NCBI GenBank assembly: GCA_020724465.1
Contig: DYGX01000004.1
Span: forward strand, 186,001-250,000
Source of the DNA: Thermoflexus sp.
GTDB taxonomy: Bacteria > Chloroflexota > Anaerolineae > Aggregatilineales > Aggregatilineaceae
Direction of reading: 5' to 3'
Length of the DNA stretch: 64,000 bases
Below the pieces are notes generated by a model, which did no database searches, was not told where the DNA came from, and worked only from the letters and a program-made list of their open reading frames with translations. This document shows, piece after piece, positions 26,795 to 31,404 of this stretch. Position 1 is the stretch's first letter. The number at the start of each line of letters is the position of its first letter. Position numbers and translations under genes: made by a program.

Positions 26795-27763
26795 ATGATG
26801 CAACGCATCGCCGTGATGACCAGCGGCGGTGACGCGCCCGGCATGAACCCGGCGATTCGGGCCGTGGTGCGCACGGCTGTGAGCAAGGGCGTTGAAGTCT
26901 ACGGGGTTCGCCAGGCGTTCGCAGGGCTGCTGGCAGGCGATTTCGAGCGGATGACCAGCCGCGACGTCAGCGGCATCATGCAGCGCGGGGGGACGATCCT
27001 GCAGACCGCGCGCAACCAGGAATTCACCACGCCGCAGGGGCAAAAGCGCGCGCTGCGACGCCTCAACGAGCACGGCATCGAGGGGCTGATTGTGATCGGC
27101 GGCGACGGCAGCCTGCGGGGCGCTCAGGCGCTGCACGAGCTGGGTTTCCCGGTGGTCGGCGTGCCGGGCAGCATCGACAACGACATCTGGGGCACCAACA
27201 TGAGCATCGGCGTCGACACCGCGCTCAACACCATCCTCGACGCCGTCGACAAGCTGCGCGACACCGCCAGCAGCCACGAACGCTGCTTTCTGCTGGAAGT
27301 GATGGGGCGCAACTGCGGCTATCTGGCGACGATGGGCGGCATTCTCGGCGGGGCCGAGTTCATTGTCATCCCCGAGCGCCCGACCACGCTGGAGGAAATC
27401 GGCAGAATTCTCGAAGACGCCTACATGCGTGGCAAGAGCCACGCGATGGGCATCGTCGCCGAAGGCGCCAACCTCAAGACGCACGAGATCGCTGAGTATC
27501 TGGAGAACCACGAAGTCGGCTTCGAGGTCCGCGTGACCGTCCTGGGCCACGTGGTGCGCGGCGGCAAGCCGAGCGCGTTCGACCGCCTGCTGGCCACGCG
27601 GATGGGCGTCGCAGCAGTCGAGCACCTGCTGGCCGGGGACACCGGGGTCATGGTCGGGCTGCACGGGCGCGATATCGGCACGGTCACGCTGGTCGAAGCC
27701 ACCACCAAGCAGCGCTCGACCAGCGAGAGCTACATCGAGATGGCCGATATGCTGTCGAAATAG
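26795..27763 (+). CDS. pfkA: ATP-dependent 6-phosphofructokinase
   Basis: 322 residues, the length of E. coli PfkA (320). Motifs: TSGGDAPGMNPAIRA at the N-terminus, GGDGS at 102-106 with Gly105 (E. coli Gly104) and VPGSIDND with Gly125 (E. coli Gly124), the two glycines that permit ATP binding; Asp128 is the catalytic base. MGRNCGYLA and the HVVRGGKPSAFDRLLATR region bind fructose-6-phosphate and phosphate. It phosphorylates fructose-6-phosphate, the committed glycolytic step. It has a near-consensus promoter. The adjacent gene encodes a second, PPi-type homolog. Confidence 0.95.
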   Translation: MMQRIAVMTSGGDAPGMNPAIRAVVRTAVSKGVEVYGVRQAFAGLLAGDFERMTSRDVSGIMQRGGTILQTARNQEFTTPQGQKRALRRLNEHGIEGLIVIGGDGSLRGAQALHELGFPVVGVPGSIDNDIWGTNMSIGVDTALNTILDAVDKLRDTASSHERCFLLEVMGRNCGYLATMGGILGGAEFIVIPERPTTLEEIGRILEDAYMRGKSHAMGIVAEGANLKTHEIAEYLENHEVGFEVRVTVLGHVVRGGKPSAFDRLLATRMGVAAVEHLLAGDTGVMVGLHGRDIGTVTLVEATTKQRSTSESYIEMADMLSK

Positions 27764-28009: not shown

Positions 28010-29185
<1,176 letters not shown>

Positions 29186-29202
29186 TCTTTCCCCGAACGA
29201 CG

Positions 29203-29240
29203 AGCGGGGCGCGTGCGCGGCATGCGCCCCGCTTGCTTTT
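29203..29240 (+). terminator. Intrinsic terminator of phosphofructokinase 2
   Basis: 10-bp stem (AGCGGGGCGC arm at 29203-29212, partner at 29224-29233) with an 11-nt loop, followed by TGCTTTT. It ends where the first decamer array begins. Confidence 0.8.
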
Positions 29241-29300
29241 GCTGCCCTCTGCTGCCCCTCGCTGTTCTTCGCTGCTGCTGGCTGTTCATTGCGCTCTTTC
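29241..29300 (+). repeat. Decamer array 1 (GCTG + six mostly pyrimidine bases), six units
   Basis: Six consecutive exact 10-bp units, each starting GC and mostly GCTG: GCTGCCCTCT, GCTGCCCCTC, GCTGTTCTTC, GCTGCTGCTG, GCTGTTCATT, GCGCTCTTTC. The array ends about 30 bp upstream of the extended -10 box of the AIM24-family gene. Confidence 0.75.
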
Positions 29301-29329
29301 GCTCCCGGCAAACGCGCCGCCCGCGATTG

Positions 29330-29338
29330 TGCTACAAT
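29330..29338 (+). promoter_or_regulatory. Extended -10 promoter for the AIM24-family gene
   Basis: TGCTACAAT with TACAAT at 29333-29338; about a 30-nt leader before ATG 29375, with GAGGAGG in between. Confidence 0.55.
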
Positions 29339-29374
29339 TCGCGCCTGACATAAGGCAAGCACGAGGAGGGTCGG

Positions 29375-30055
29375 ATGGAGTACAAAATCAACGGGACAGT
29401 GATGCAATCGCTTGAGATCACCCTCACCCGGGGCGAGGCGATTTTCACCGAATCCGGCGGCATGGCGTGGATGAGCGACGGGCTGGAGATGCAAACGGGC
29501 AGCCGGGGCGGGCTGGGCAAGGCGCTTGGACGCATGCTCGCCGGGGAAAGCCTTTTCCTCACCACCTACACCTGCACGGCGCCCCAAGCCACGATCACGT
29601 TCACGCCCGAAAGCCCCGGCAAGATCTTGCCCGTCCCGCTGCGCGAAGGGTTCAGCATCATCTGCCAGAAGGACGCTTTCATGTGCGCCGAGACTTCCGT
29701 CGATCTCGCGATGCACTTCCGCAAGCGGCTGGGGACCGGACTGTTCGGCGGCGAAGGGTTCATCCTGCAAAAGCTGACCGGGCCGGGCACGGCCTTTGTC
29801 GAGATCGCCGGCGAGGTCCAGATGTACGACCTGCAGCCCGGCCAGCGCCTGCGCATCGACCCCGGCCACATCGCGATGTACGAGCCGACCTGCGACTATG
29901 ACATCGAGATGGTCAAGGGCATTATGAACTGGATCGGCGGCGGCGAAGGGTTGTTCCTGGCAACCATCACCGGCCCCGGCAAGGTCTGGCTGCAAACCAT
30001 GCCGCTCAGCAACCTGGCCGCCAAGCTGAAAGCGTACCTGCCGAAGGGTGGCTAG
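29375..30055 (+). CDS. AIM24/TIGR00266-family protein
   Basis: 226 residues. Family features: MEYKINGTVMQSLEITLTRGEAIFTESGGMAWM at the start, GESLFLTTYTCTAPQATITF, GGEGFILQKLTGPGTAFVEIAGEV and GEGLFLATITGPGKVWLQTMP at the end: a repeated beta-rich architecture with Gly-Pro-Gly turns. Members (mitochondrial AIM24, bacterial TIGR00266) form trimeric double-psi-like barrels of unknown biochemical role. There is no signal peptide. It has its own promoter and strong SD (GAGGAGG). It is flanked on both sides by decamer repeats; its stop codon lies inside the first unit of array 2. Confidence 0.9.
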   Translation: MEYKINGTVMQSLEITLTRGEAIFTESGGMAWMSDGLEMQTGSRGGLGKALGRMLAGESLFLTTYTCTAPQATITFTPESPGKILPVPLREGFSIICQKDAFMCAETSVDLAMHFRKRLGTGLFGGEGFILQKLTGPGTAFVEIAGEVQMYDLQPGQRLRIDPGHIAMYEPTCDYDIEMVKGIMNWIGGGEGLFLATITGPGKVWLQTMPLSNLAAKLKAYLPKGG

Positions 30056-30134
30056 AAACAGCGAAGAGCAGCCAGGAACAGCAAAGAACAGCAAATGGCA
30101 GCTAGAAGCAGCTAGAAAAACAGCGAGAAGCGAC
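30053..30134 (-). repeat. Decamer array 2, opposite orientation
   Basis: Read on the minus strand, about eight units of the same decamer family: GCTGTTTCTA, GCTGCTCTTC, GCTGTTCCTG, GCTGTTCTTT, GCTGCCATTT, GCTGCTTCTA, then a 12-bp and a degenerate unit. It begins at the AIM24-family stop codon and is inverted relative to arrays 1 and 3, so it could pair with array 3 in RNA. Confidence 0.75.
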
Positions 30135-30149
30135 AGCCCGCCGCTCTCC

Positions 30150-30300
30150 GCTGCTTGTGGCTGTCTTTAGCTGCTTGTAGCTGTCTTTAGCTGCTTGTAG
30201 CTGTCTTTAGCTGCTTGTGGCTGTCTTTAGCTGCTTGTAGCTGTCTTTAGCTGCTTGTAGCTGTCTTTAGCTGTTTTTAGCTGCTCTTGCTGCCTTTCAC
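30150..30300 (+). repeat. Decamer array 3 with six-copy 20-bp tandem repeat
   Basis: Six copies (30150-30269) of a 20-bp unit made of two decamers, GCTGCTTGTA then GCTGTCTTTA (A/G varies at the last base of the first), followed by GCTGTTTTTA, GCTGCTCTTG and a decayed unit. No spacers, so not CRISPR. It runs directly into the promoter of the UbiA gene. Confidence 0.9.
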
Positions 30301-30309
30301 TGCTATGAT
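30301..30309 (+). promoter_or_regulatory. Extended -10 promoter abutting decamer array 3
   Basis: TGCTATGAT with TATGAT at 30304-30309. The -35 region is occupied by the last decamer units. Leader of about 35 nt with GAGG 7 nt before ATG 30352. Confidence 0.55.
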
Positions 30310-30351
30310 CTGCGTGGCAATTCGCACACCAGAGGAACCTGAGGAACTGAG

Positions 30352-31404
30352 ATGTCCACCCAACCCACCACAGCGGACACTGTCCGCACGACCTCGCTGC
30401 CGCGGCGCTGGCAGATCGCGCTCGACTCGTGCAACTATCCAGACGTGCATCACGCCGACGTGCTGACGCGCTGGCTGGTGATCGCCCGCGCCTGCGTCTT
30501 CTCGATGACGATCACATCCGGTCTGATCGGCGTGCTGCTGGCGCTGGAGATGGGCGCATTCGCCGAGCAGACGCTGGCGCGCGCCGTCTACGCGCTGCTG
30601 GCGGTCATCGGGCTGGTCGCCGCGCACGCCGCCAACAACCTGATCAACGACTGGACCGACGTCCGGCGCGGTGTGGACACCGAGGACTATCCCCGCGCGC
30701 AGTACAGCCCGCACCCGGTGCTCGGCGGCCTGACGACACCCGCCCGCCTGCTGCAGGTAGCCCTCGGCCTCACCGTGCTGGACGGGCTGATCATGCTGTT
30801 TCTGGCCTGGGCCAGCGGCCCGCTGGTGATCGCCTTCGCGGTGAGCGGGCTGGCGCTCAGCCTGGGTTACACCGTCTTCCTCAAACGCTTCGCGCTGGGC
30901 GAGCTGACCGCGCTGATCGTCTGGGGACCGCTGATGATTGGCGGGACGGTCTACGCCATCGCGGGCGAGCTTCCGCGCGACGCGCTGCTGCAGTCCCTGC
31001 CCTATGGCCTGATCGTCGCCTCGGTTCTGATCGGCAAGCACACGGACAAAATCGACAGCGACGCGCCGGTCGGCGTGCACTCGGTGCCCGTGCTGCTCGG
31101 CACCCAGCGCGCGCTGGCGCTCAACAAGGTCACGTTCGTGGTGTTCTATATCCTGATCGTGGCGCTGGTCGCCGGCGGCGTGAGCGGCCCCTGGATTCTG
31201 CTCAGCTTCCTGGCGCTGCCCCGGCTGATCACCGCCTGGAAAGTGTACTCGCAGCCCAAGCCCGCCACCCGGCCGGACGACTGGCCGGTCTGGCCGCTGT
31301 GGTACGTCGGCTGGGCGATGTATTTCAACCGCGAGGCGGGCAAATATTTCATTCTGGGGCTGCTGCTCAACACGCTGGTGCCCTGGCTGGCGGGGCTGAT
31401 CTAG
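30352..31404 (+). CDS. UbiA-family prenyltransferase (MenA-like)
   Basis: 350 residues with eight or nine membrane helices. The first Asp-rich prenyl-diphosphate site NNLINDWTDVRRGVDTED (N-x3-D-x-x-D) is near residue 95, and the second, KHTDKIDSDAPVG, near 228. Both face the cytoplasm in UbiA enzymes and bind Mg2+ and the prenyl donor. MenA (1,4-dihydroxy-2-naphthoate prenyltransferase, menaquinone synthesis) is the nearest type I would name, but tocopherol, chlorophyll and heme prenyltransferases share these motifs. There are no menaquinone genes nearby. The hydrophilic N-terminal ~45 residues are longer than usual. Confidence 0.85.
   Translation: MSTQPTTADTVRTTSLPRRWQIALDSCNYPDVHHADVLTRWLVIARACVFSMTITSGLIGVLLALEMGAFAEQTLARAVYALLAVIGLVAAHAANNLINDWTDVRRGVDTEDYPRAQYSPHPVLGGLTTPARLLQVALGLTVLDGLIMLFLAWASGPLVIAFAVSGLALSLGYTVFLKRFALGELTALIVWGPLMIGGTVYAIAGELPRDALLQSLPYGLIVASVLIGKHTDKIDSDAPVGVHSVPVLLGTQRALALNKVTFVVFYILIVALVAGGVSGPWILLSFLALPRLITAWKVYSQPKPATRPDDWPVWPLWYVGWAMYFNREAGKYFILGLLLNTLVPWLAGLI

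Follow-up and report, generated by a model that had tools for sequence, protein, structure and literature searches.

A unit of 10 bp, GCTG followed by mostly C or T, recurs in exact register on both sides of an AIM24-family gene of Thermoflexus sp., and the question raised by this locus is what such arrays are and why they should be found there. The stretch of DNA analyzed, which we call the window, is 64,000 nucleotides long. The first-pass annotation described three separate arrays, and a pattern and repeat search of the window found all three in the places reported (Table 1); they are the only chains of at least four GCTG units in the 64 kb. Arrays 2 and 3, although correctly located, are not independent arrays; together they form the arms of a single inverted element. 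This two-armed build was overlooked in the annotation, as were the placement at stop codons and the restriction to one genus described below. The exclusion of CRISPR stands, given that the arrays have no unique spacers between repeats, as does the statement that no transposase is present in the element.

Table 1. Arrays of the 10-bp unit in the window and the features that adjoin them.
Feature	Position	Strand	Description
Conventional hairpin resembling an intrinsic terminator	29201-29235	+	3' of the second phosphofructokinase gene; outside the repeat family
Array 1	29241-29290	+	5 GCTG units, every step 10 bp; single-armed
AIM24-family gene	29375-30055	+	PF01987, E 9e-72
Complete two-armed element	30053-30298		Between the AIM24 and UbiA genes
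Array 2	30053-30112	-	5' arm of the element (CAGC, purine); 6 exact in-phase units, all steps 10 bp; fades to about 30134
Loop or degenerate center of the element	30113-30149
Array 3	30150-30298	+	3' arm of the element (GCTG, pyrimidine); 15 units, thirteen 10-bp steps and one 9-bp step
UbiA-family prenyltransferase gene	30352-31404	+	Starts 53 bp past the element

The stop codon of the AIM24 gene, TAG, sits within the first unit of array 2, and array 3 contains a 20-bp higher-order repeat, GCTGCTTGTAGCTGTCTTTA, in 6.9 copies (TRF score 241). Folding of the element predicts a long imperfect hairpin from either strand, with z scores of -7.0 on the plus strand and -4.0 on the minus strand. Array 1 is of a different nature. 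It starts 55 bp beyond the stop codon of the second phosphofructokinase gene, after a terminator hairpin with a 16-pair stem (12 of the pairs G-C) and the tail CTTTTGCTGC. This hairpin is also present in both congeneric genomes, the nearest relative (G001) and a more distant one (G002); of array 1, G001 has a degenerate form and G002 none. Beyond the fold of the terminator array 1 adds none of its own (z -1.0), and it is best read as a single-armed remnant. The two phosphofructokinase-family genes that lie in tandem 5' of AIM24 (26795-27763 and 28010-29185) are different from each other.

The three-unit pattern GCTGYYYYYNGCTGYYYYYNGCTG matched 325 times in the 4.42-Mb genome, while the reversed pattern, used as a control, had no match. 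In 833 kb of the genome there were 52 arrays of up to 16 units, compared with two three-unit arrays after dinucleotide shuffling, and these two controls exclude a chance origin. Fifty-seven elements were counted in stretches of the genome containing 271 of the 325 matches, from which we estimate about 70 elements genome-wide. The same pattern is found in both congeneric genomes (230 and 53 matches) and is absent from all 38 further genomes searched in the family and order; a four-unit pattern, applied to a sample of 400 genomes of the phylum, identified beyond this genome a lone single-armed array, whose unit is different. The intergenic repeats of the genus are predominantly tandem repeats with a period of 10, 20, or 30, and none of these occurred in 389 kb from four sister genera. 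The family is thus genus-specific and consists of about 70 extragenic inverted arrays of a 10-bp minisatellite unit, GCTGYYYYYN. Rfam 15 covariance models gave no match to the element at E up to 1, and a published description of the 10-bp repeat was not found in the literature. The first-pass annotation named as a refuting outcome that the arrays occur only here and vary freely in spacing, as slippage debris would; they are instead distributed throughout the genome, and their spacing is kept between species.

A full element consists of a CAGC purine arm with units N-RRRRR-CAGC, a gap (median 12.5 bp), and a GCTG pyrimidine arm with units GCTG-YYYYY-N. This arm order matched 55 times, each place being counted on both strands, and the opposite order did not occur. 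Arms have from 3 to 17 units and elements are 100-270 bp long, interrupted every 10 bp; the composition of the arrays is T-rich rather than C-rich. The next GCTG followed at 10 bp in 733 cases, at 11 bp in 26, at 9 bp in 12, and at 20 bp in 36, in agreement with the constant 10-bp phase first noticed in the window. The accompanying proposal that the spacing rather than the sequence is selected is not supported, since an exact GCTG is retained in 523 of 593 interior in-phase cores (88%) and unit positions 5-9 are almost only C or T, with position 10 free. Compared with dinucleotide shuffles, the elements have a mean fold z of -5.6, and 84% of them are below -3. Within an element, the lengths of the two arms are uncorrelated (r 0.04).

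The placement of the elements was studied with genes called by a simple, purpose-written codon-usage finder, the calls being uncurated except that window genes were checked by Pfam. Convergent gaps, which account for 139 of 867 gaps (16%), hold 42 of the 102 placeable elements (odds ratio 4.8, p 5e-11), and divergent gaps are depleted, with 7 of the 102 (odds ratio 0.22, p 1e-5). The convergent preference was invisible in one unselected 600-kb sample, where the numbers are small (2 of 13 elements). Only 4.7% of arm bases overlap called genes, and for most elements the nearest stop codon is no more than 10 bp away. In the 10-bp phase, the offset from stop codon to array was 7 in 50 cases and 2 in 23 cases; at the phase 7 contacts, the outermost bases of a unit are TAA or TAG. 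In about half of all contacts the array contains the stop codon, in phase, and TAA is enriched (33 of 85 contacts, versus 17% overall). Every arm that touches a stop codon is purine in the mRNA of that gene (100 of 100 contacts, comprising all 81 at two-armed elements and all 19 at single-armed ones), and no gene-direction bias of the arm types was seen. Some arrays run into the coding end of a gene, as in G2C276, where the array gives the protein a new C-terminal tail. In convergent gaps an average of 28 nt is left beside the element, which leaves little room for another terminator. Some elements are found between operon-like tandem genes, less than 25 bp ahead of the next start codon (for example, C4:175498). 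Several genes are flanked by elements, and a gene cassette or composite transposon was considered, but these are ordinary housekeeping genes.

Comparison with the congeneric genomes separated what is kept in these elements from what is not. Between this genome and G001, which have a flank identity of about 94% and AIM24 proteins that are about 99.6-100% identical, the element was present in both at every compared site, the sole mismatch being a coding false positive; the G001 contigs were chosen for carrying arrays, and the comparison therefore gives no loss rate over all sites. Orthologous arms share few units but keep the 10-bp spacing. Behind AIM24, for example, there are GCTGCTTGTAGCTGTCTTTA repeats in this genome and GCTGTTTCTAGCTGTTCTTT repeats in G001. 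Local tandem duplication replaces the units; the position of the element, its polarity, and the 10-bp phase persist. On G001 contig C228 (L197, 6698-6950) there are also about 250 bp of extra sequence behind AIM24, and a single-armed array past the element.

In the more distant G002, only some of the element sites are common with this genome. In several of the other cases the gap of the element-less genome contains a conventional GC-rich hairpin (behind AIM24 in G002, and at G000 C4:212605, C38:2150, and C4:104513). Filled and empty sites differ across the whole gap, so that no insertion point can be defined. The lack of such a point with a target duplication speaks against an origin as a MITE or IS-derived element. 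At the position of one 10-bp array of this genome, G002 (contig C3; L260, 1392-1623) has inverted arrays that are short and have a 7-bp unit, GCGRTTA, and that may be an element of this type that arose independently.

The two arms of an element are unlike in a systematic way. Unit types vary at positions 6 and 7, which are C-T or T-C, and in this genome the share of units that have C at position 7 is strongly anticorrelated between the arms (r -0.76, n = 35, permutation p <2e-4). Cognate arms have a predicted duplex energy of -46.9 kcal/mol, versus -51.6 kcal/mol for swapped arms, and were worse in almost every permutation; their longest perfect stem averages 8.9 bp (maximum 17), versus 11.2 bp (maximum 40) for swapped pairs. 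Fine RNA covariation between the arms was thus rejected, the outcome being the opposite of that expected, and the significantly lower complementarity of cognate arms shows that perfect palindromes are avoided. G-U pairs are not preferred in register (280, versus 290 A-C mismatches), which together with the uncorrelated arm lengths gives no sign of fine-tuned RNA pairing. REPs likewise favor heterodimers, for which escape from SbcCD has been suggested as the reason (PMC3733652), and the unlike arms of the element parallel this preference. SbcD is encoded in the genome.

We infer that the element functions in RNA, as a slippage-maintained 3'-end hairpin working like a REP or BIME, either as a partial bidirectional terminator or as a shield of the mRNA 3' end; we would give this reading about an even chance of being correct. 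In a transcript of either strand the stop codon would be followed by the purine arm and this by the pyrimidine arm, and purine first is the order that an intrinsic terminator requires. As the pyrimidine arm was transcribed, CAGC:GCTG clamps would close one unit at a time behind the weak U/C-rich hybrid in RNA polymerase. The result would be a ladder of sites at which polymerase weakly terminates or pauses, effective in both directions, and the hairpin left behind would protect the mRNA 3' end. Slippage would keep regenerating the arms, with selection retaining only the R/Y polarity, the GCTG core, and the register, and removing elements whose arms had become a perfect palindrome.

Several of the findings favor such a hairpin: the fixed arm order, the enrichment in convergent gaps and depletion in divergent ones, the contact with stop codons, the purine sense of the contacting arms, the fold z scores, and the sites kept in G001. 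Further support comes from the GC-rich hairpins at element-less sites, the shortage of room for another terminator in convergent gaps, the poorer pairing of cognate than of swapped arms, and the presence of SbcD. Arms that are rewritten between close species at sites that are kept look like a fast-evolving counterpart, built of repeats, of the hairpins with which other bacteria terminate or protect their mRNAs. A generic terminator scan recovered no consensus terminator inside the element; the pyrimidine arm is U-rich. This outcome of the scan, the uncorrelated arm lengths, the lack of a G-U preference, the few elements in divergent gaps, and the small unselected sample with its invisible convergent preference are points against this function, and the elements between operon-like genes also count against it, since a strong terminator so close to the next start codon would be harmful. 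More tentatively, the genus may have replaced part of its sequence-specific terminators by a self-renewing 3'-end signal, an expandable 10-bp minisatellite of which only the polarity, the 4-bp clamp, and the register would be selected. The sequence would be rewritten by slippage, and the arms would be kept unlike, retaining the hairpin without an unstable perfect palindrome.

The operon-like neighbors, short gaps, uncorrelated arms, and absence of a G-U preference hold our confidence in a 3'-end hairpin function to an evenly balanced judgment, and leave slippage debris as a lesser possibility. The arrays could, with a rather low but appreciable probability, be a non-functional minisatellite, in which a GC-rich hairpin or chance repeat was expanded by slippage and inverted duplication and was tolerated behind stop codons as the least harmful place. 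Tolerance alone would favor convergent gaps, and fast unit turnover, arm lengths that vary independently, the lack of base-level optimization of pairing, and confinement to one genus all agree with it. The invariant arm order and the purine sense of all single-arm contacts argue against it, as do the retention of the GCTG core while C and T vary freely and the presence of the element at every site compared in two species with about 94% flank identity. A founder copy with such properties could still account for the polarity.

A role for the DNA itself is unlikely. One GCTG per helical turn could be a platform at gene ends for a protein of the nucleoid, a gyrase-like protein, or one that forms filaments, as has been proposed for BIMEs, or phased T-runs could bend the DNA, as the first-pass annotation suggested. 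The phase is constant, the inverted arms form a dyad, and the arms as a whole have a raised predicted bend per 50 bp (48.5 degrees, versus 36.4 degrees in shuffles and 28.6 degrees in other intergenic DNA). The case for bending is nevertheless weak, arrays 3 and 2 of the window reaching only 34 and 29 degrees. The mean step is about 10.0 bp, as slippage copying of a 10-bp unit gives, and not the 10.5 bp or so needed to stay on a single helical face over arms of up to 170 bp; long arms would drift off that face, and selection for helical phase is not borne out. A platform also predicts neither contact with stop codons, nor the polarity of the arms, nor their purine sense relative to the stop. 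Still less probable is a Rho-dependent terminator in which the pyrimidine arm would be a repeated rut-like site with one YC-rich segment per Rho subunit, placed after stop codons on both strands. Rho is encoded in the genome and pyrimidine-rich 10-nt repeats do lie downstream of a stop codon on either strand, but pairing with the purine arm would occupy the pyrimidine arm, the arrays are rich in T rather than C, and the arms that touch stop codons, being purine, are of the wrong kind. A REP or MITE family mobilized by an IS200/IS605-type transposase is very improbable: placement and stop-codon supply are as in GTAG REPs and the genome has one short Y1_Tnp gene, but the array closest to this gene is 3.5 kb away, the array-bearing G001 and G002 have no like gene of its size, and the filled and empty sites compared above have neither an insertion point nor a target duplication.

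Returning to the 3'-end hairpin, its nearest counterparts in placement are the REPs and BIMEs tagged with GTAG or CGTC, which are extragenic, lie in convergent and tandem gaps at less than 20 bp from the 3' ends of genes, frequently contribute the stop codon through their termini, can form larger hairpins as inverted pairs, and in many families prefer unlike partners (PMC3733652). The element resembles them in its extragenic location near 3' ends in convergent and tandem gaps, in often supplying the stop codon, and in its unlike partners. It does not belong to them, having no discrete 20-40 bp palindrome, no GTAG or CGTC tag at one end, and no associated RAYT (Y1_Tnp) transposase, and its 10-bp units are non-palindromic alone, number 3 to 17 per arm, and turn over almost completely between close species. 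In Neisseria, inverted pairs of the DNA uptake sequence (DUS), a 10-bp repeat, act as terminators behind genes (PMC2397512); these have one exact DUS per arm, function in uptake, and show no unit turnover. Cyanobacterial short tandem repeats and TAACTGA heptamer arrays are likewise intergenic in many regions and taxonomically patchy (PMC4679880), but have a 7-bp unit, are always direct repeats with no inverted arms, and lie mostly a short distance 5' of start codons. Both are relatives in kind and not in sequence. Bidirectional intrinsic terminators share with the element the location between convergent genes, the hairpin, and the purine-to-pyrimidine polarity on both strands, but are usually short GC-rich single stems and not interrupted structures of 100-270 bp.

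REP-like repeats have been known for decades as elements that are located at 3' ends and whose inverted partners are usually unlike. In this genus a REP-like placement, the supply of stop codons, and the rule of unlike partners arise with a quite different building block, so that evolution has here been replicated independently. The features in common (contact with 3' ends, polarity, and imperfect pairing) are likely to be those that matter, and the fast turnover of units lets selection on each feature be measured directly across close genomes.

Further arrays were recorded. In G212, of a distant genus of Chloroflexota, there is a single-armed 10-bp array of GCTGTTTCCC/GCTGTTCCCC in 8 copies (L287, 8346-8424). 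In viral contigs (IMG/VR), a related unit of 10 bp, GCTGCCTCC[T/G], forms long single-armed arrays of 13 to 49 copies, with no inverted partner seen (L239:7979-8488, L224:3795-4145, L228:8-357, L230:11393-11692, and L225:2830-2959). Three arrays at L129/L130 (contig C4, 111-124 kb) lie in or adjoin a prophage-like region with capsid and terminase domains, and one of these adjoins the stop codon of a gene for a TIR-HEAT protein.
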